A DNA stretch of 64,000 bases from Sphingopyxis sp. 2PD (GTDB lineage: Bacteria; Pseudomonadota; Alphaproteobacteria; Sphingomonadales; Sphingomonadaceae). The stretch's first letter is position 1. Every line of letters starts with the position of its first letter. Positions 3,880 to 42,892 of this stretch are shown piece after piece. The position numbers and the translations under genes were made by a program. A model generated the notes under the pieces. The model had not been told where the DNA came from and ran no database searches. It saw nothing but the letters and a program-made list of their open reading frames with translations. Location of the stretch: the NCBI RefSeq assembly GCF_005503695.1, contig NZ_SCMU01000010.1, positions 1 through 64,000 of the forward strand, written 5' to 3'.

Positions 3880-4338
3880 ATGACGGGGAAGGCGGAGCCA
3901 ATCTCGGAGCCAATCTCGTCGGGCGCGATCCGGCTGGACGCCGATGCGCTCAACGCGTTCATGGCGGACGCCTTTCCCAATTCGGCGCCGGGTTCGCGCG
4001 GCACCGTCGTGTCGGCGGCGCCCGGGCATATCCAGGCGCGGATGGACCCGAATGAAAACGCTTTGCGGCCCGGTGGCCTCATTTCCGGACCCACGCAGAT
4101 GGGGTTCGCCGATATGGCGGCCTACGCGCTCGTCCTGGCGCATATCGGTCCGGTCGCGATGGCGGTGACGAGCGCGCTCAACTATCAGTTCCTGCGTCCG
4201 TGCCGGCCGGGGCCGCTGTTCGCCGATGCGCATATGTTGCGGCTTGGAAAACGGCTCGCGGTGATGGACGTCCGGATCTGGACCGACGACCCCGAAAAGC
4301 CTGTCGGACAGGCGAATGTGACCTACGCCATTCCCTAG
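3880..4338 (+). CDS. PaaI-like hotdog-fold thioesterase
   Basis: 152 residues. It starts 5 nt after the ettA stop, so it is probably co-transcribed with ettA. The sequence has the hotdog pattern: a substrate-side stretch around Arg-Pro-Gly-Gly-Leu-Ile-Ser-Gly-Pro followed by the central helix, then beta strands with an Asn-Tyr-Gln-Phe-Leu-Arg-Pro turn. Members hydrolyse acyl-CoA thioesters, but the substrate cannot be read from sequence. A second, shorter relative lies at 51543-51941. Confidence 0.75.
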   Translation: MTGKAEPISEPISSGAIRLDADALNAFMADAFPNSAPGSRGTVVSAAPGHIQARMDPNENALRPGGLISGPTQMGFADMAAYALVLAHIGPVAMAVTSALNYQFLRPCRPGPLFADAHMLRLGKRLAVMDVRIWTDDPEKPVGQANVTYAIP

Positions 4339-4411
4339 ATCGCTGCTTGAACGCCTATTCTCCTCGGCTATCCGCTGTGTTATAGCGATAACACAATTGG
4401 GGAGGAACATC

Positions 4412-4984
4412 ATGCGAATTGCTCTTGTTGCTGCGGCCTTGCTGTCGGCCGCCGTCTTGCCCGCGCAGGCGCAGATGCGGACCGATCCTGCGGTCGTCGC
4501 CGAACAAAAGGCCGCGATCGCCCGATTGGCGAAACTGCACGGCGAATGGCGCGGGACCGCGACGATCACGTCGCCGGGCGGTACGATCAAGTTGGTGCAG
4601 ACCGAGCGCGCCGGGCCGATGCTGGACGGCACCGCGGTGGTGATCGAGGGGCGCGGTTATGACGAGGCGGGCAAGCTCGCCTTCAATGCTTTTGCGGTGA
4701 TTTCGTACGACGCCGCGACCGATCAATATGCCATGAACAGCTGGACCGACGGTCGCACCGGGAAATTCCCGTTTGCGGTGACCGATACGGGCTTTGAATG
4801 GAGCATCCCCGTCCCGAACGGCGCCACGATCAAATATGTCGCGACAGTCGCCGACGGCAAATGGACCGAGGTCGGCAGCTATGTCGGCGTCGGGATGCCG
4901 CCGGTCGAATTCGCCAAGCTGGAAGTCGCGCGGATCGGCGATAGCGATTGGCCGGCGGCGGGGTTTGTTCCCGCGAAACCGTGA
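4412..4984 (+). CDS. Exported hypothetical protein (DUF1579-like)
   Basis: 190 residues. The ATG is preceded by GGGGAGGA with good spacing, so I chose it over an in-frame start 5 codons upstream. A signal peptide ends Ala-Gln-Ala around residue 20. The mature part contains LHGEWRG, then a beta-rich region ending in SYVGVGMPP, which resembles lipocalin-like DUF1579/heme-binding-type small barrels. I cannot assign a ligand. It should be periplasmic. It is followed by a short inverted repeat rather than by another + strand gene. Confidence 0.7.
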   Translation: MRIALVAAALLSAAVLPAQAQMRTDPAVVAEQKAAIARLAKLHGEWRGTATITSPGGTIKLVQTERAGPMLDGTAVVIEGRGYDEAGKLAFNAFAVISYDAATDQYAMNSWTDGRTGKFPFAVTDTGFEWSIPVPNGATIKYVATVADGKWTEVGSYVGVGMPPVEFAKLEVARIGDSDWPAAGFVPAKP

Positions 4985-31463: not shown

Positions 31464-31636
31464 TTAGACAGAAATGAAACAAGACGCCGATGTTTGCACA
31501 ACCCCTTCCCTCTCGTCCGGCACCGCGGTTGCGCGGTGGGACTTGGCCGCTATATGACGGCGGCATCAGGGGAAGCTATGGCGCGCGCCGGGGCGGCGCC
31601 GACCGGCAAAAGATGGCGTTCCAGAGCAAGCAATCG

Positions 31637-32158
31637 ATGACCAGTTCGAACGACCGAACCGATGCTGCGCAAGGCATCGAAGGCGTATTGCTCGCCAACC
31701 GCGATCGGATCGTCCGTTTCTTGCTGGCGCGCGGCGCGGGGGATGCGGCCGAGGATCTGTTCCAGGATTTGTGGATGCGACTGACCGATCGTCCCATGGG
31801 GCCGGTCGCCGACCCCCTGCCCTATGTCATGCGCGCCGCCAACAATCTGATGCTCGACCGGTATCGTTCAGCGCGGCAGAGCGCGCTGCGCGATCAAGCC
31901 TGGGGGGAGACGGCGGCCACCCACGCCCCGTCGGCAGAGATCGCACTGATCTCGCGCGAGCAGCTTGGGCTGGTCGAGGCGGCGATTGCGGGTAGCGGCG
32001 AACGCGCCGCCCGCATCTTTCGCCGGTTCCGCGTCGACGGCGCCAATCAACGCGATATTGCCAGTGAAATGGGGGTCAGCCTGAGCACAGTCGAAGCCGA
32101 TTTGCGTAAGGTGTATGCGACGCTTGCCGCGTTACGGAGACAGTTCGATGCGTCCTGA
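31637..32158 (+). CDS. FecI-like ECF sigma factor
   Basis: 173 residues from ATG 31637. An in-frame ATG at 31613 would add 8 residues, and neither has a strong ribosome site. Region 2 contains FLLARGAGDAAEDLFQDLWMRL and YVMRAANNLMLDRYRSA. Region 4 is RDIASEMGVSLSTVEADLRKVYATL. It should direct RNA polymerase to the receptor promoter when released by the FecR protein encoded next, whose start overlaps this stop by 11 nt. Confidence 0.9.
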   Translation: MTSSNDRTDAAQGIEGVLLANRDRIVRFLLARGAGDAAEDLFQDLWMRLTDRPMGPVADPLPYVMRAANNLMLDRYRSARQSALRDQAWGETAATHAPSAEIALISREQLGLVEAAIAGSGERAARIFRRFRVDGANQRDIASEMGVSLSTVEADLRKVYATLAALRRQFDAS

Positions 32159-33080
32159 TATCGACAGCATTGAAGCGCGCGCCATCGACTGGCTGATCCG
32201 CCAGCGCGACCCGGCGTTCGACGATTGGGACGGCTTTACCGACTGGCTCGGCGAGGACCCCGACCATGCCGCCATCTACGATACCGTCGCGAGCCTCGAT
32301 CAGGATCTTGGCGCGCTGCCTCCGGCGGCAAAGCCCATGGCAGCGACCGTGCCTACCACGCCGCGCCGTGCGTCACGTCGTGGCTGGTTTGGCGGCGCCA
32401 TGGCGGCAGCCTTGGTCGCGGTTATCGCGCTATCGACCCTCAATCCCTTCGCTAGCGCCGATCGGATCGAAACCGCGGCAGGCGAACAGCGCACGATCGA
32501 GCTTGCCGATGGATCGCGGATCGAGATCAACGGCGGGTCGGTGATCGAAATCGACAAGGATCGCCCGCGCTTTGCTCGTCTGGAAAGCGGTGAGGCGATG
32601 TTCCACGTCGTCCACCGCGATAACGATCCCTTTGTCGTCGAAACGGGCGGCAACCGCATCGTCGATCTGGGAACCGCGTTCAACGTCGTTCGGCGCGAGC
32701 GCCAGACGTCGGTCGCCGTTTCGGAGGGTATCGTTCTTTACAACCCCGACCGCGACGAGGTTCGCCTGGTCGCGGGCAAGGCGATCGAGGTCCGCGATGG
32801 CGATCGAAAGGCGCCGGTTGTGCAGGACGTCGATGTGGCCAGTATCGGCGGCTGGCGCAGCGGGCTGCTGGTTTACAATGGGGCACCGCTGGCGGTGGTC
32901 GCCGAAGATCTGAAGCGAACCGCAGGAATGGATGTTCGGATCGCACCTGCGGCCGCCGACCTGTCGTTCCGCGGCGCGCTGATCATTGACAAGAACCGCG
33001 GTCGTACGATTGCCGATCTTGCCGCCTTGTCGGGAACAAAGGTGCAGCGACAGGGCGACGGCTGGATATTGACCCGCTGA
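32148..33080 (+). CDS. FecR-family anti-sigma/signal transducer
   Basis: 310 residues. The N-terminal cytosolic part contains DWLIRQRDPAFDDWDGFTDWL, the sigma-binding FecR signature. One transmembrane segment lies around residues 85-105. The periplasmic FecR domain has ERTIEL-like ADGSRIEINGGS and GTAFNVVRRE, and ends in an STN-like C-terminus (GTKVQRQGDGW). It should receive the signal from the STN domain of the receptor, whose start lies 2 nt downstream. Confidence 0.92.
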   Translation: MRPDIDSIEARAIDWLIRQRDPAFDDWDGFTDWLGEDPDHAAIYDTVASLDQDLGALPPAAKPMAATVPTTPRRASRRGWFGGAMAAALVAVIALSTLNPFASADRIETAAGEQRTIELADGSRIEINGGSVIEIDKDRPRFARLESGEAMFHVVHRDNDPFVVETGGNRIVDLGTAFNVVRRERQTSVAVSEGIVLYNPDRDEVRLVAGKAIEVRDGDRKAPVVQDVDVASIGGWRSGLLVYNGAPLAVVAEDLKRTAGMDVRIAPAAADLSFRGALIIDKNRGRTIADLAALSGTKVQRQGDGWILTR

Positions 33081-33082
33081 CC

Positions 33083-35566
33083 ATGCACCCGCGCCTCGCC
33101 CTTGTCGCCGCTGCGACGCTGCTGGCCCTGCCTGCGCAGGCCTTGGCGGCGGAGGAACGCACGTTCGACGTGCCGAGAGGGAGCCTGTCGACTGCCTTGC
33201 CGGTGATCAGTCGGCAGGCCGGGGTGAGCATCAGCGTCGTTGACGCGAAACTGTGGAAAGCGCGGGTCAAACGGGTGCGCGGTCGGATGAGCGTCGAGCA
33301 AGCGATCCAGCGGCTGTTGAGCGGTTCCGACGCCCGCGCAATCCGTGTCTCGGCCACGAGCTGGCGTATCGAACGCCGTCCGCTTGCGCCGCGTGTTGCC
33401 CACCGCCCCGCCCCGCCGCCGCAGCAGACGCCGCAGCCGCGCGCGCGCGCGCCTTCGCAGGATATGGTCGCCACGGCGCAGGACGAGATCATCGTCACCG
33501 CGTCGAAAACCGACCTGCCCTATTCGCATTTTGCCGGCGTCGTCACCCAATTGAGTGGCGGCGATTTGGCGTTTGGCGGCGAACGCGGGATGGAATCGAT
33601 CCTGTCGCGCACCGCGACGGTGTCCTCGACCCATCTGGGTTCGGGGCGCAACAAGCTGTTCATTCGCGGCATCGCCGATTCCAGCTTCACCGGCCCGACG
33701 CAATCGACCGTCGGGCAATATCTGGGCGACATCCGGCTCAGCTATAATGCCCCCGATCCCGACCTGCGTCTTTATGACGTCGACAATGTCGAAATCCTCG
33801 AAGGACCGCAGGGCACGCTCTATGGTGCCGGATCGCTCGGCGGCATCATCCGCGTCGTCCCCAAATCGCCCGATCCGCGCGCGATGTCGGTGCAGGCGAT
33901 CGCGGGCGTCTCGGTCACCCAGCATGGCGACCCCGGTGGCGACATCGCCGCGATCGCCAACCTCCCCGTCGGTGACAATGGCCATGCGCTCCGTCTCGTC
34001 GGCTATATGCTGACCGACGGCGGCTATATCGATAACCCGCTACGGGGACAGAATGACGTCAACCGCGTCCATGTGCGCGGCGGCCGCGCGGCCTTTCGCT
34101 TCGACGCTGGCGATGACTGGACCGTCGATCTGGGCGGCGTTTACCAGTCGATCAAATCGAACGATGCACAATATGCCGACAAGGCGGCCGACCCGCTGAC
34201 GCGCAATTCGATGGTCGAGCAGAATGCCTCGGCGCGTTACGGGCTCGGTACGATTGTGGTGATGAAAGACTGGGACGGCCTGCATTTCCAGTCGTCGAAC
34301 GCCTTTGTCGACCATCGCCTGTTCGAACGCTTCGACGCCAGCCTGCCCGAAGCGCCGCCCGGATCGGTCGTCTCGAGCGGCGCGGTCGATGTCGAGCGCC
34401 TGTTCGCACCGATCCAGGTCATCCCGCTCAGCACGGTGCCCCGCGTGCTCGACCAGCGCAACGCGACGCGAATGTTCGTCAGCGAAAACCGCTTGTCGCG
34501 TCCCTATCATGACGGGTTGGGCTGGGTGATCGGCGCGAGCTTCATCGACAATCGCGCGCAGCAGAACCGCGAATATCGCTATGGCGCGCTGCGCGCGGTC
34601 CTCCCCGGCGTCACCAACAAAATTACCGAAGTCACGGGCTATGCCGAGGCGACGGTCGAAGTGACGCCGAACCTGATCGCGGCGGGCGGCGTCCGCCTGT
34701 CGCACGCGCGGCTGGGCGGGATGGCGGAAGGCGTCTCGTTCGCGCTCGCCCAGGCGGGCCGCGCGACGACCGCGTCGCGAAGCGAAACCGACCTGCTGCC
34801 CTCCTTCTCCCTGCTCGCGACGCCGCTGCATAACCTGCGCCTCTATGCGCGCTATCAGGAAGGATTCCGGCCCGGCGGCCTCGCGGTCGATGGCAATTTT
34901 GTGCGGCGCTTCCTGAACGATCAGGTGCGGACGTGGGAGGCGGGTGTCCGCTTCGGCGACAAGCGGCAAACCCTGTTCGATGCCAGCATTGCGGTGTCGC
35001 ACAGTCGTTGGCGCAACATCCAGGCCGATTTCATCGACAGCACGGGCTTTCCGACCACCGCCAACATCGGCGATGGCCGGATCACCAGCGTTTCGGGCGC
35101 GCTCGCGATGCGCCCGACCGAGGCACTGACCTTTGAACTCGGCGCAGTCTATAACCACAGCCGCGTCGACGATCTGGCGCTGGAAATCCTGCCGGTATTT
35201 GCCGCAGCGCCCGCCCGACTGGGCCGCATTCCCAATGTCGCGAGCCACGCGGTGCGCGGATCGGTCAATTATGCGACCGTCGTCGGCGACGAGGATTTTC
35301 GTGTCAATGGCTGGGCCAACTATGTCGGACCGTCGCGGCTTGGGATCGGGCCGGTTCTGGGCGAAAGCCAGGGCGATTATATCGACACCGGACTGGCGAT
35401 GCGCGTCGGCAATGAACGGCGCGGATTGTCGCTGACGCTGACCAACCTGTTCGATTCGCGCGGCAATCGCTTTTCGCTGGGGACGCCGTTTGTCGAGGGT
35501 AATGAGGGTTTCATGACCCCGCTGCGGCCAAGGACGCTGCGGATCGCGGTGGATGTAGCGTATTAG
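33083..35566 (+). CDS. TonB-dependent receptor with N-terminal STN signalling domain
   Basis: 827 residues. A signal peptide is followed by an STN domain (about residues 25-95: FDVPRGSLSTALPVISRQAGV), a Pro/Gln-rich linker, a TonB-box-like EIIVTA and a plug domain with VEILEGPQGTLYGAGSLGGIIRV. The beta-barrel ends LRIAVDVAY. The STN domain marks it as a transducer that signals to FecR and the sigma factor upstream. The substrate (siderophore, heme or glycan) cannot be deduced, and no SusD-like or siderophore genes adjoin it. Confidence 0.92.
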   Translation: MHPRLALVAAATLLALPAQALAAEERTFDVPRGSLSTALPVISRQAGVSISVVDAKLWKARVKRVRGRMSVEQAIQRLLSGSDARAIRVSATSWRIERRPLAPRVAHRPAPPPQQTPQPRARAPSQDMVATAQDEIIVTASKTDLPYSHFAGVVTQLSGGDLAFGGERGMESILSRTATVSSTHLGSGRNKLFIRGIADSSFTGPTQSTVGQYLGDIRLSYNAPDPDLRLYDVDNVEILEGPQGTLYGAGSLGGIIRVVPKSPDPRAMSVQAIAGVSVTQHGDPGGDIAAIANLPVGDNGHALRLVGYMLTDGGYIDNPLRGQNDVNRVHVRGGRAAFRFDAGDDWTVDLGGVYQSIKSNDAQYADKAADPLTRNSMVEQNASARYGLGTIVVMKDWDGLHFQSSNAFVDHRLFERFDASLPEAPPGSVVSSGAVDVERLFAPIQVIPLSTVPRVLDQRNATRMFVSENRLSRPYHDGLGWVIGASFIDNRAQQNREYRYGALRAVLPGVTNKITEVTGYAEATVEVTPNLIAAGGVRLSHARLGGMAEGVSFALAQAGRATTASRSETDLLPSFSLLATPLHNLRLYARYQEGFRPGGLAVDGNFVRRFLNDQVRTWEAGVRFGDKRQTLFDASIAVSHSRWRNIQADFIDSTGFPTTANIGDGRITSVSGALAMRPTEALTFELGAVYNHSRVDDLALEILPVFAAAPARLGRIPNVASHAVRGSVNYATVVGDEDFRVNGWANYVGPSRLGIGPVLGESQGDYIDTGLAMRVGNERRGLSLTLTNLFDSRGNRFSLGTPFVEGNEGFMTPLRPRTLRIAVDVAY

Positions 35567-38582: not shown

Positions 38583-39659
38583 ATGACAAAAGGCAAGCGT
38601 ACAGCGCTCTGGGTGGCGACGATCCTTGGCATCGCGCTTCTGTCGGCGTGGTTGTTTCAGCGGCCGATCGGCCTTTGGCTCTTCGAGCGCGCGGTCGAAC
38701 GCGCGGCGGCGCGCGACACGCTCAAGGATCTGCCAGACGGATTGCACGTCGGTCTCTGCGGTACCGGCTCCCCCCTCCCCAGCCGCGAGCGTGCGGCGTC
38801 CTGCACCGTCGTGATCGCGGGCAAGGCGTTGTTCGTCGTCGATGCAGGAGAGGGTGCGGCGCGCAATATTGCACAGATGGGCCTGCCCAATGGCCGTATC
38901 AAGGCGATGTTCCTGACCCATTTTCATTCGGACCATATCGACGGGATGGGGCCAATGATGCTGCTGCGCTGGACCGCCAGCGGCAACAAAAGTCCTCTGC
39001 CCGTTTATGGGCCGTCGGGTGTCGAGCAGGTTATTGCCGGGTTCAACGCCGCCTACGCACTCGATAATGGCTATCGCACCGCGCACCATGGCGAGGCGAT
39101 CACGCCTCCCGCGGCTGCCGGCGCGACGGCGATCGCCTTTGCGCTCCCGGCGGCACCGACGGTCATCTACGACGCGGGCGGCCTTCGCGTCACCGCTTTC
39201 GCCGTCGATCACCGCCCGGTCCAGCCGTCGGTCGGCTATCGGTTCGACTATAAGGGACGCAGCCTCGTCGTCAGTGGCGACACGGCACCATCAAGCACGC
39301 TGGAAGTGGCTTCCAAAGGCGCTGACCTTCTGATTCACGAGGCACTGAACCCCGCGATGGTCAAGACGCTCGCGGCAAAGCTCGACAAGGCGGGCCGCAA
39401 CCAGACTGCACAGATCATGCGCGACATCCTCGATTATCATGCCAGCCCGGCGCAAGCCGCCGACAGCGCGCGCGTCGCAGGGGTCCAGATGCTGGTGCTC
39501 AGCCACGTCGTGCCGTCGATGCCATCGCCCTACCTGAATGCGGCGTTCCTTGACGGCGCCGAAGATCGGTTCGACGGGCCGATTATCGTCGGCGAGGACG
39601 GCCAATATTTCTCGCTGCCCGCTGGCAGCAAGACAATCGACCGCGGCAGCTGGTTCTAG
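38583..39659 (+). CDS. Membrane-anchored metallo-beta-lactamase-fold hydrolase
   Basis: 358 residues. The ATG follows GGGGGATGGGAG. An N-terminal transmembrane segment (about residues 8-25) anchors it. The RNase Z-like core has GTGSPLPSRERA, then HFHSDHIDGMGPM (HxHxDH), SGDTAPS and a late VLSHVVP histidine. The membrane anchor argues against a tRNA 3'-processing role, and an exported esterase or sulfatase-like activity is more likely. The last 4 nt overlap the convergent PAS gene. Confidence 0.82.
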   Translation: MTKGKRTALWVATILGIALLSAWLFQRPIGLWLFERAVERAAARDTLKDLPDGLHVGLCGTGSPLPSRERAASCTVVIAGKALFVVDAGEGAARNIAQMGLPNGRIKAMFLTHFHSDHIDGMGPMMLLRWTASGNKSPLPVYGPSGVEQVIAGFNAAYALDNGYRTAHHGEAITPPAAAGATAIAFALPAAPTVIYDAGGLRVTAFAVDHRPVQPSVGYRFDYKGRSLVVSGDTAPSSTLEVASKGADLLIHEALNPAMVKTLAAKLDKAGRNQTAQIMRDILDYHASPAQAADSARVAGVQMLVLSHVVPSMPSPYLNAAFLDGAEDRFDGPIIVGEDGQYFSLPAGSKTIDRGSWF

Positions 39660-40552
39660 GCAGCGCGTCGGGTGACCAGAACAACCGCACCATCGCTGGC
39701 ATAAGGTCCACGGACTTCGGCGATCGTCAGATCGACGTCGATGGCGTCGCCGTCGCGCGTCACCATTTGGGACGCGATGCAGACGGGCTGACCCGATCGG
39801 AACAGCGCCTCCAGTCCCTCAGAAAAACCTGACCGATCACCGACCGCCAACAACGCCGAAAAACGCACCCGCCGGATCGCGGTGGCATCGACCCCGAGCA
39901 TAACGAGTAGCGAGTCGTTCGCCGCCTCGACCGCTCCGCGCACCGATATGCGGGCGTGACCGATACTGCCCTGCGCTTCGATCGCGCTCAACAGGGCGGC
40001 GCGTGCGTCGGTGGCGGCAAAATTGTCGATGGCACCGCTGACGTCGCGCAGGATCATCGCACCGCCGGTCGGGGTCGGCACAAGATCGATCCGCAGCCAT
40101 TGGCGCGGTCGCAAAATGTCCGGCAACTCGCCCGAAAAACGCTCACGATGGTCGATCAGGCGGATGATATGCTGCGTCAGCATGCTGCGCTCGATCCGTG
40201 GCACCGCGGTCGTCAGGGGTACGCCGATCATCTCCGCGCATGATCGTTCCAGCATGTCGCAGGCCGCCGGGTTGGCGGCGACGATCCGCCATTGCCGATC
40301 GATCAGGATCACTCCGTCGCGGATCGATTCGACCACCCCCGCCAGCGATTGTTGCAGGCGGTCTGCGGTCCCTGCAACATTGTTCGCCTCGCTATCGAGC
40401 CGACGATAATCGTCGAGCGAGATCAGCACATGGGCATCCTTGCCATGGTGCGTCACGACGACAGGCTCGCGCGCCGATTGCAGGCGCCAATTGGCAAAGC
40501 CGCGAATGAAATCGGCTGCCGATACTCGCTGCGGTTCCTGCGCCGTCGCCAC
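39656..40552 (-). CDS. PAS-domain protein with N-terminal Phd/YefM-like segment
   Basis: 298 residues. Residues about 8-53 read VSAADFIRGFANW...PVVVTHHGKDAHVLISLDDYRRL, a good match to the Phd/YefM antitoxin fold (Sxxexr...pvvIt.hGk...vlis.eeY). Two PAS domains follow (about 65-175 and 185-295), the first with GVILIDRQWRIVAANPAACDML. There is no kinase, GGDEF or output domain, so the antitoxin-like part may be the DNA-binding output. No toxin gene adjoins it. Confidence 0.75.
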   Translation of the reverse strand: MATAQEPQRVSAADFIRGFANWRLQSAREPVVVTHHGKDAHVLISLDDYRRLDSEANNVAGTADRLQQSLAGVVESIRDGVILIDRQWRIVAANPAACDMLERSCAEMIGVPLTTAVPRIERSMLTQHIIRLIDHRERFSGELPDILRPRQWLRIDLVPTPTGGAMILRDVSGAIDNFAATDARAALLSAIEAQGSIGHARISVRGAVEAANDSLLVMLGVDATAIRRVRFSALLAVGDRSGFSEGLEALFRSGQPVCIASQMVTRDGDAIDVDLTIAEVRGPYASDGAVVLVTRRAA

Positions 40553-40649: not shown

Positions 40650-42284
40650 TCAGACCAGCTTCGCTTTCCCGCAACGCAGCGCGTTGACCCGCGCGTCGGC
40701 CTGTCCGACGTGCACGCCGAGCAGTCCGGTGAGGTCGGCGATCACGGTATCGACCACGGGCGCGGCAAGCGCGACGCCGTCGGCGACGGCGGAGCGCAGC
40801 GCGTTGAGGTTGAGCCCGATGCCCAGCACATTGACGCGAAGTTCCATGCGGTCAGCAAGCGATCGGGCGGCACCCGCGACGATGCCGCTGCTCGACACGG
40901 TCTTGACTTGCCCATCGTCAATATCGCGGCGCGAAAAGGCGACCGGCTTTTCGGCGAGGTCGGACAGCACCAGTTCGGCCTCGGCGTCAACGCTGGCCAG
41001 CGGCAGTTTCACCACGCGCGCCGGAGCGGGATCGAGCGGGCGCTTCATATCCTGGAAATCGGCGGCGTCGACGGTGCCGATCGCCAGCATGGCGGGCGAG
41101 GTCACCACCGCGAGCGACACCGCCGCGCTGCTGTCGGGACCACAATCGATCTCAGAAATCCGCGCCGATGCCGAGCCCAGTTCGGCGAGCACCGGGACGT
41201 GGACGCTGGCAAGCAGGGTCTGGACCCTCGTGTCGATCTTCAGCCGTACCTGCGCGGTGCGGACGACGACCTGATTGGTGTCGGTCACCGCAATCAAAGG
41301 CGAATGGGCTGGCGGCTCGCCGACGAGCAGCGCGATGTCGATGCCGGACCCGCCCGGCAGCGCACTCGCGACCGAAAGGTCGACCTGGCGATTGGCGTTG
41401 CTCAGCAACAACATCGCGCGCAGCAGGCTGAGCGCATTGACCTTGACGGGGTTGGCGGGGTCGACGCGGATGCTCGACGAGCGCGGCCCCAGATCGATCG
41501 CGCGCGACGGCAGCAGGCTGCGCGGCAAGGCGCGTCCGGCGATATGTTCGAGCACCCCTGCGGCTTGGCCATCCGATGCGCTAGCCAGCGCTGATACGAC
41601 CTGCGGCAGCGTGACATGGCTGTCGAGCGTCTGGCCAAAGGTCAGCACATCGGCATCGATCTCGGTCCGGAGCGCCTCGGAAAAGGCGAGCAAGTCGATG
41701 TCGGTGCTGGCGAGAGCGTTATAATCCATCAGCGACAGGCTGAGCTCGCTGCCGGTCAACCCCGACAACAACGCGTTGGGAAGGCCGCCGTGCACCGCAG
41801 CGACGCGCGACCCGAGCGAAAAGGCCGCGTAGCCGCGCCGCGCGCCGGTGGCCGTGGCGCGGATGACGGTGTCGCTCTTGCCGGTCAGGAAACGGCCGAA
41901 GTAGAGCGGGCGGTTGCGGGTCAGGCTGATCTGCACGGCGTTCGCTGACGCTCCTCCGGGCGCGAAACGCTGCTCGGCCGCCACGGTCCGTTCGGGCGTA
42001 TAGGTGCCTGTGGTGAGCGCTGCGATCTGGATGCCGCAATCGCAATTGGCGGCAATGATCCGCTCGGCCGCCGCCCGCTCCTCGCCCGGTCGCCCGGCTG
42101 CCGCCATTGCCGCCGCGTCGGCGATGCCCTGCAGTTTCCGCCGGTCGAGGTAAAGCGAGCCGACATCGACCGCGAGCGCCGCGGCACCGATCAGCATCGT
42201 CATCGCGAAGGCGGTCGCGATGCTGATTCCCGCGCGGCGGTCGCGGACCAAGCCGCAAAGGAACGGGAGCAGCGCCACGGTCAA
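40650..42284 (-). CDS. TadG-like pilus/secretion-associated protein
   Basis: 544 residues. It has the N-terminal TadE/TadG membrane segment (DRRAGISIATAFAMTMLIGAAALAVDVGSLY) followed by a long periplasmic part with LDRRKLQGIADAAAMAAAG, typical of TadG. No von Willebrand A metal motif is evident. Its ATG overlaps the TadE-like gene by 4 nt. No other tad genes occur in the window, so the machinery must lie elsewhere. Confidence 0.82.
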   Translation of the reverse strand: MTVALLPFLCGLVRDRRAGISIATAFAMTMLIGAAALAVDVGSLYLDRRKLQGIADAAAMAAAGRPGEERAAAERIIAANCDCGIQIAALTTGTYTPERTVAAEQRFAPGGASANAVQISLTRNRPLYFGRFLTGKSDTVIRATATGARRGYAAFSLGSRVAAVHGGLPNALLSGLTGSELSLSLMDYNALASTDIDLLAFSEALRTEIDADVLTFGQTLDSHVTLPQVVSALASASDGQAAGVLEHIAGRALPRSLLPSRAIDLGPRSSSIRVDPANPVKVNALSLLRAMLLLSNANRQVDLSVASALPGGSGIDIALLVGEPPAHSPLIAVTDTNQVVVRTAQVRLKIDTRVQTLLASVHVPVLAELGSASARISEIDCGPDSSAAVSLAVVTSPAMLAIGTVDAADFQDMKRPLDPAPARVVKLPLASVDAEAELVLSDLAEKPVAFSRRDIDDGQVKTVSSSGIVAGAARSLADRMELRVNVLGIGLNLNALRSAVADGVALAAPVVDTVIADLTGLLGVHVGQADARVNALRCGKAKLV

Positions 42285-42736
42285 TCGACCGGCAATTCAA
42301 AGGTCGCGCGCGACCGAATGACATTGGTCGGCGACGGGACCAGCGCCGAACGCAGGAAGCTGTCCGGCGGAGCGGTAAAGGCGACCGCAACCGTGATGGC
42401 TTCGTTCGTTTCGGACACCGCGACGCTATGCGAGCCGCTCACCGATTGCAGGCTCCGCGCAACCGCGCGCGTCGCCACCGCGCTGCGATCGGCGGCATCG
42501 AGCCCGACGATGGCGGCGCGTGCACCGTCGTTCGCCGCCTGCTGGACGCTGTGCGCGAGCATGAAATATTGGCCATAGACCAGCATGCCCGTCAGCAGCA
42601 TGAGGAGCAGCGGCAGCACCAGCGCCATTTCGACGATGGCAGCGCCGCGCTCCTCGCGCAGCAGAGTGGGGCCGGGCGGAGACGGACGGCGGGCGGGCCG
42701 CGGCAAGACAGGGAAAGCTGTCATGGCCGCCAGCAT
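42281..42736 (-). CDS. TadE-like pseudopilin-family protein
   Basis: 151 residues (or 147 from the ATG at 42724). After a Pro/Arg-rich start it has EERGAAIVEMALVLPLLLMLLTGMLVYGQYF, the TadE signature with a Glu at position 5 of the prepilin-like segment. It is co-translated with the TadG-like gene. Minor pilins of this type assemble with Flp pili, but no flp or cpa genes are here. Confidence 0.85.
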   Translation of the reverse strand: MLAAMTAFPVLPRPARRPSPPGPTLLREERGAAIVEMALVLPLLLMLLTGMLVYGQYFMLAHSVQQAANDGARAAIVGLDAADRSAVATRAVARSLQSVSGSHSVAVSETNEAITVAVAFTAPPDSFLRSALVPSPTNVIRSRATFELPVD

Positions 42737-42750
42737 GACGGTCCGAAATG

Positions 42751-42782
42751 AAAGCGGCGTCGAGATCGCCCGACGCCGCTTT
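42751..42782 (-). terminator. Terminator-like 12-bp hairpin after yghU
   Basis: AAAGCGGCGTCG (42751-42762) and CGACGCCGCTTT (42771-42782) form a perfect 12-bp stem with an 8-nt loop. It sits about 110 nt beyond the yghU stop and just upstream of the TadE start, both on the minus strand. T-runs on both sides are short, so it could work in either direction. Confidence 0.65.
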
Positions 42783-42892
42783 TGCGTATTTTACATAGCA
42801 TTTGCGTGCAGTGCAGCGGCCTTGTCGGCGGTTTGCGCCATTCCTTGACGCAGCGCTAACGACGGGCGGTCGTCGCCCGTCGCAAATTGCGC

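Follow-up and report, generated by a model that had tools for sequence, protein, structure and literature searches.

A Phd/YefM antitoxin fold as the probable DNA-binding output of a PAS-domain regulator of adhesin genes in Sphingopyxis

Regulators in which PAS domains accompany a DNA-binding domain include PpsR, which has a C-terminal HTH and controls photosynthesis genes, and the eukaryotic bHLH-PAS factors, which carry a small DNA-binding domain at the N-terminus. On the antitoxin side, one account of YefM describes its autorepression and names R10 and R31 as required for DNA binding (PMC4803016). For a protein that joins a Phd-type domain to PAS domains, no description was found in the open-access literature, as searched through titles and the beginnings of abstracts.

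Here, we analyzed such a protein, encoded within a 64-kb stretch of Sphingopyxis DNA (64,000 nucleotides; hereafter the window). Our reading, drawn from sequence comparison and predicted structure, is that a PAS one-component regulator of adhesin genes, probably a repressor, has taken over an antitoxin fold for its DNA-binding output, and we put its probability at about 77%. The regulator gene, the domains of its product, and its candidate targets are listed in Table 1. GGGAGG precedes the GTG start of the regulator gene, and at its stop end the gene is overlapped by 4 bp by a convergent gene for an MBL-fold, RNase Z-like protein. The tadG-like gene ends 97 bp upstream, and because the regulator gene lies so close behind it on the same strand, it may share the tadG operon and thus control itself too. 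For the tadE-like gene, the true start is probably the ATG at 42724. Elsewhere in the window (31490-35566), genes for a sigma factor, FecR, and a TonB-dependent receptor stand in a row and constitute a FecI/FecR-type signaling set.

Table 1. Regulator gene, protein domains, neighboring candidate targets, and putative operator, in window coordinates.
Feature	Position	Strand	Description and basis
Phd-PAS-PAS regulator gene	39656..40552	(-)	298 aa, GTG start; ORF and profile matches
Phd/YefM-type N-terminal domain, residues 8-53	40394..40531	(-)	predicted DNA-binding and dimerization domain; profiles, structure model, constraint
Linking helix, residues 59-78	40319..40378	(-)	AlphaFold model
PAS domain 1, residues 79-171	40040..40318	(-)	Pfam and AlphaFold model
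Helix between PAS domains, residues 172-194	39971..40039	(-)	AlphaFold model
PAS domain 2, residues 195-296	39665..39970	(-)	model pLDDT >90 at residues 201-280; weak PAS_3 match
tadE-like gene, putative target	42281..42736	(-)	Pfam TadE
tadG-like gene, putative target	40650..42284	(-)	Pfam Tad and Tad_C domains
Putative operator TATGTAAAATACGCAAA before tadE	42781..42797	(-)	17 bp; matrix, genome pattern scan

The first-pass annotation had assigned the N-terminal 50 or so residues to the Phd/YefM fold and had placed two PAS domains behind them, and both assignments held in profile searches and structure prediction. Specifically, the Phd/YefM match covered residues 27-54, being over the cut-off in NCBIfam (phd_fam, 23.9 vs 20.8) and at its edge in Pfam, where the single protein scored 29.4 bits against a cut-off of 29.8 and the genome scan gave 30.1, just over it. 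In a wider alignment of 32 members, 24 of which were only 24-31% identical to the window protein, 26 members matched PhdYeFM_antitox at E<=0.001, so that the match is no chance event. PAS models matched residues 72-171 well over cut-off (PAS_9 at 45.1 bits vs 27, Pfam), and the second PAS domain, for which PAS_3 stayed under its cut-off by sequence, was clear in the structure model. Sequence and fold neighbors of the PAS domains included a LOV protein, FixL, DosP, and MmoS. Neither heme nor flavin was assigned as the ligand, as no ligand residue stands out in the wider family.

Modeled at full length with AlphaFold (pLDDT 83.4, pTM 0.48), the protein had a β-α-α-β-β-α arrangement at residues 8-53, followed by a helix, a PAS domain, a second helix, and a second PAS domain, and residues 1-58 predicted alone adopted the same β-α-α-β-β-α fold with a pLDDT of 87.7. 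Foldseek searches with the latter model returned YefM, M. tuberculosis RelB1, and a prevent-host-death protein first, with a best E of only 0.0017, the model being short. In VIA-align, the 23 top rows (Z 8.4-5.4) were all antitoxins, antitoxin complexes, or a prevent-host-death protein, with Phd, YefM, RelB, VapB46, and others among the names; according to the tool's warning, a Z below 8 alone may reflect a common arrangement, and here the first unrelated row dropped to 3.5. These top rows included structures solved with DNA, namely Phd with operator DNA (4zm0, 4zm2) and YefM-YoeB with DNA (6l8e). A sensor and a DNA-binding-type domain are placed within one chain by Pfam, the AlphaFold model, and VIA. 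Of the two outcomes that would have counted against the first-pass annotation, a profile score below threshold and a model lacking the Phd fold, neither was obtained, although the single protein is borderline in Pfam.

The same fusion, which the first-pass annotation had proposed looking for in other sphingomonads, was present as full-length relatives across genera of the Sphingomonadaceae. Within the genus, 43 of 60 genomes, the window's own included, had the full-length regulator, 15 had none, and two (G010 and G033) retained only approximately residues 177-298. Searches at higher ranks found relatives in at least 30 of 298 genomes of the family (Sphingopyxis alignment, 1e-20), at least 56 of 396 of the order, all in Sphingomonadaceae (wider alignment, 1e-30), and at least 23 of 385 of the class (1e-15), counts that are lower bounds because few candidates per genome were scored. 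The alignment restricted to Sphingopyxis undercounts the regulator, in that G123 and G141 were recovered only with the wider alignment. Outside Sphingomonadaceae, the order and class searches, again with few candidates scored per genome, found no full-length relatives; the matches in the class search were PAS stretches only, except for one 93-aa frame that matched the Phd part alone. Among plasmids, one distant relative that spanned most of the query was found, in Sphingobium sp. TomTYG65. Finally, two genomes (G035 and G019) had a second regulator copy, flanked on one side by the gene of a TonB-dependent receptor and on the other, with one gene intervening, by a RadC gene (L050 7503-8384; L146), with no clear motif upstream of these second copies.

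TadE and TadG were directly upstream of the regulator in all 39 named loci, which come from Sphingopyxis or unclassified relatives. Among 25 loci from other genera (L121-L145), TadG adjoined the regulator in 10, with TadE called in nine of these, and a YadA-type adhesin gene did so in six; in another 34 loci, which the order search supplied (L288-L321), the corresponding numbers were seven for TadG and five for the YadA-type gene. Outside Sphingopyxis, a tadE/tadG-like or YadA-type gene was thus adjacent in 28 of 59 loci, as assigned by clustering and profile, with Pfam YadA domains checked in L128, L291, and L300, and neither adhesin type was adjacent in the other 31. YadA-type genes were divergent from the regulator in every case (11/11). 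TadE/TadG were divergent in nine of 17 non-Sphingopyxis cases and downstream or convergent in the rest, and since their orientation differs between loci, the pairing with the regulator has survived rearrangement. In 15 of the 34 loci from the order search the regulator had rpoD on one side and a DUF6975 gene on the other, with another gene in between at some of these loci; other adhesin-free loci were near M13 peptidase (L138), RadC-like (L127), and Crp-like (L140) genes. We also noted one large genus of the family in which the regulator sits between rpoD, located after dnaG, and DUF6975, sometimes with an adhesin or other gene inserted (e.g., L307 5208-8536). The Sphingobium TomTYG65 relative was divergent from a YadA-type gene, which was followed, according to the annotation, by OmpA family, spore coat protein U, and fimbriae usher genes.

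The association with TadG extended to co-occurrence across genomes. Strong TadG matches (E<1e-120) were present in 22 of 298 family genomes, and 21 of these carry the regulator or most of it (19 at the first search, plus G123 and G141). In G123, the copy beside TadG is without the Phd part (profile positions 57-288 only) and a Phd piece lies at a contig end. Co-occurrence to this extent has a chance probability of 3e-23, with 32 regulator genomes counted and with relatedness and adjacency uncorrected. Within the genus, the genomes with TadG and those with the full regulator were the same 43 of 60. As to the two remnants, G033 has a 188-aa ORF left of PAS domain 2 (L048 8350-8916), and tadE, tadG, and the Phd-PAS1 part are gone from between intact neighbors, in what looks like one deletion; the motif described below was kept in front of this remnant. 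G010 has a 186-aa ORF (L049 16018-16578), also a PAS domain 2 remnant, with the contig ending just past it, and the genus-wide TadG search did not find TadG in this genome.

Palindromic operator sites had been anticipated upstream of 40552, a proposal that did not hold: by eye, no clear motif copy was present in the gap of 74-129 bp that separates tadG from the regulator gene in Sphingopyxis, and the motif that we identified lies before tadE instead, at 42781-42797. Its matrix was built from 39 Sphingopyxis tadE upstream regions (the window and 38 loci; L089, with its upstream stretch cut, was left out), all 39 of which gave a site of at least 13.5 bits, by construction the best of each. The window's site scored 30.3 bits, vs 14.3 for the next match in the 64 kb. 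The pattern YGYAAAWTNYRCAAA with zero mismatches occurred at two sites in the window's genome, before tadE and before a PilZ gene, and one mismatch added 11 sites, vs three in all for the reversed control. Across the 60 genus genomes, a slightly narrower pattern, YGYAAAWTNYGCAAA, had 45 sites, vs one for its reversed control; by comparison of coordinates, 22 of the 45 preceded TadG by 496-614 bp, which places them in front of tadE, seven were 47-197 bp before the PilZ gene, and one was at the G033 remnant. An exact palindrome was set aside as the motif model, since symmetry in the Sphingopyxis matrix was stronger as a 9-bp direct repeat (correlation 0.82) than in inverted form (0.48). The matrix from other genera was partly palindromic (0.92 over 11 columns). 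Within the genus, G358 and G362 each have two exact motif matches, with no regulator found.

Beyond Sphingopyxis, the evidence for the motif came from two sets of loci. For 24 other-genus loci scored with the Sphingopyxis matrix, the combined p was 1.5e-10 against dinucleotide shuffles and 5e-17 against real windows of the same loci (14/24 at p<0.05), and for 34 hold-out loci with one fixed 400-bp zone it was 2.8e-11 (14/34 at p<0.05), or 5e-9 with the other-genus matrix (11/34 at p<0.05), all of these combined values being optimistic because loci within a genus are not independent. Zones in the first set were partly post hoc, the stretch before tadE (or TadG) having been used in L121, L129, and L136 in place of that before the regulator, and the motif tests excluded L142, whose frame was unclear. 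The real-window controls were GC-matched, except in L122, L134, and L143, where such windows were too few and the most AT-rich ones served instead. No motif reached p<0.05 in 20 of the 34 hold-out loci and 10 of the 24 first-set loci. Motif discovery on other-genus regions alone returned CGTAAATTGCGCAAAAT, the same motif as in Sphingopyxis, from 22 regions, with six loci that have no adhesin neighbors (L127, L134, L135, L138, L139, and L140) left out and no shuffled control run. A strong match in L122 at 6427 was dropped as chance, since it is inside what looks, by eye, like a glpD gene. In TomTYG65, the two best motif matches of the 14.8-kb stretch were in the intergenic gap, at only 10.4 and 10.0 bits.

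Individual genomes of the family varied. In G235, the regulator is on another contig and tadE still has the motif (19.5 bits). G129, G125, and G238 have the regulator and tadE side by side, yet weak sites (5.2-6.8 bits); G273 and G335, in which the two are apart, also have weak sites (4.6 and 5.4 bits), and G119, whose TadG is a distant one and in which no regulator was found at 1e-8, has a site of 9.7 bits. Overall, a conserved operator-like motif near neighboring genes was present in the comparison, though absent from some loci.

The second site in the window's genome (4816-4830 of L161) was 47 bp upstream of the PilZ-protein gene (4140-4769), which holds two PilZ stretches, and motif sites recurred before orthologs of this gene, often near -200. 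Sites of at least 14 bits, a limit set after the scores were seen, were present in 19 of the 23 genomes that carry the regulator in full, one of five without it, and both of those with a remnant (Fisher p 0.015; 30 of the 36 PilZ genomes had loci). In G005, the regulator is absent and a PilZ site of 14.3 bits was kept.

The motif could instead belong to another, wider surface-gene regulator of sphingomonads, with the Phd-PAS gene as its target or a mere neighbor in the cluster. The site before the distant PilZ gene, the persistence of the motif in G005, G358, and G362, all without the regulator, and the regulator loci without a clear motif lend this some weight, but we consider it unlikely given that the motif accompanies the regulator at adhesin loci of two unrelated types and also lies, at 22.6 bits, upstream of the regulator where the neighbors are different (L143). 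Moreover, exact matches were present in 31 of the 43 genus genomes with the full regulator vs four of the 17 without, two of which keep a remnant, and G293, the sole strong-TadG family genome without the regulator, had no motif either.

A second alternative is a true antitoxin that neutralizes a toxin encoded elsewhere, its PAS domains controlling antitoxin stability. The C-terminal toxin-neutralizing tail is absent, as the helix and two PAS domains come directly after the Phd part and occupy its place (Pfam, AlphaFold model). Furthermore, no toxin gene adjoins the regulator in the window, its neighbors being tadG and the MBL-fold gene, as had been observed at the outset, and no small ORF recurs directly beside the regulator among the ORFs clustered between loci, in which unconserved ORFs are unnamed. 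Because both tail and toxin neighbor are missing, we did not group the regulator with the type II antitoxins. Antitoxins can act in trans, and the genome has one other Phd/YefM match; with these points and the Phd fold itself set against the missing tail, the lack of an adjacent toxin gene, and recurrent neighbors that include adhesins, a neutralizing role appears very improbable.

The Phd-type N-terminal domain was the most conserved part of the protein. Over 31 relatives, amino acid identity to the window protein was 92% for residues 8-53, despite differences at 43.5% of comparable fourfold sites, and stood at 64% and 65% for the PAS domains and 40% for the linker. R17, F19, and G37 of the Phd part were invariant in the 32-member alignment, and R17 is presumably the counterpart of YefM R10. 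It is hardly credible that the Phd resemblance is a fossil and that the protein signals via protein contacts, its domain no longer binding DNA: YefM R31, a DNA-binding residue according to the published account (PMC4803016), seems from an alignment read by eye to fall on H35, which varies in the wider family, and the single-protein Pfam score is just under cut-off, but the strong constraint on residues 9-52, the three invariant residues, and the motif and neighbor evidence all argue for a working domain.

Recruitment of the Phd fold as a DNA-binding output, as the first-pass annotation had suggested, is backed by the domain constraint, the adhesin neighbors, and the putative operator motif. 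Under the mechanism we propose, the N-terminal domain would dimerize and bind the AT-rich operator YGYAAAWTNYGCAAA before surface-adhesin genes, the half-sites being CGYAA-like and in direct and inverted order. The targets would be tadE-tadG in this genome and YadA-type trimeric autotransporters in other genera, and the PilZ-domain gene here is probably a target too. The helix and PAS pair would replace the disordered toxin-neutralizing tail of ordinary Phd/YefM antitoxins, with the PAS domains sensing a cytoplasmic cue and presumably passing the signal on via the two helices, such that DNA affinity would change.

In most Sphingopyxis loci the site was approximately 60 bp before the tadE start; the distance was 29-57 bp in G101, G180, G141, G086, G269, G235, G212, and G123, but 143-163 bp in G252, G281, and G142. 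A protein bound close to the tadE start would overlap the promoter or transcription start. The proximity of the site to the start, together with the autorepression reported for YefM (PMC4803016), makes repression the likelier sign of regulation. A scan near tadE found no sigma-70 consensus promoter. A strong hairpin (42749-42784; 14 pairs, folding z -4.6) lies at the edge of the putative operator, before tadE, and because it starts at that edge the tadE leader may also be structured. In several Sphingopyxis species the hairpin stem seemed, by eye and uncounted, to be preserved through paired changes.

More broadly, we lean toward the view that the DNA-binding domain of an antitoxin was domesticated in Sphingomonadaceae and gave rise to a family of one-component regulators, gated by PAS domains and using an operator code of their own, that would switch several unrelated surface adhesins (TadE/TadG, trimeric autotransporters, possibly usher fimbriae) and, via the PilZ gene, touch c-di-GMP control of attachment. 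If true, this would clearly exemplify the reuse of a toxin-antitoxin component, separated from any toxin, as the output of a sensory regulator. The defined motif makes the idea testable at once, and the system would offer an entry point to adhesion control in sphingomonads.

Several known systems resemble the protein in part. Like the eukaryotic bHLH-PAS factors (ARNT, HIF, CLOCK), from which many Foldseek matches came, it has a DNA-binding domain followed by two PAS domains, but the DNA-binding fold is unrelated and whole-model TM-scores were only approximately 0.33. It resembles the PpsR/CrtJ redox repressors of alphaproteobacteria in combining a DNA-binding domain with multiple PAS domains connected by long helices, and the top Foldseek match of the whole model was PpsR (4hh2, described in its PDB title as 'without the HTH motif'); in contrast to these repressors, the output here would be an N-terminal Phd domain. 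Finally, the closest relationship of that domain is to P1 Phd and E. coli YefM, with which it has in common the N-terminal β-α-α-β-β-α fold over residues 7-58 (VIA Z 7.1-7.8: 2a6q, 4zm0, 4zm2, 3hs2). The operators described for YefM carry TGTACA (PMC4803016), as opposed to the CGYAA/TTRCG motif identified here. Unlike Phd and YefM, the regulator has PAS-PAS in place of a toxin-binding tail and has no neighboring toxin gene, and its predicted targets are adhesin genes, its own operon possibly included.
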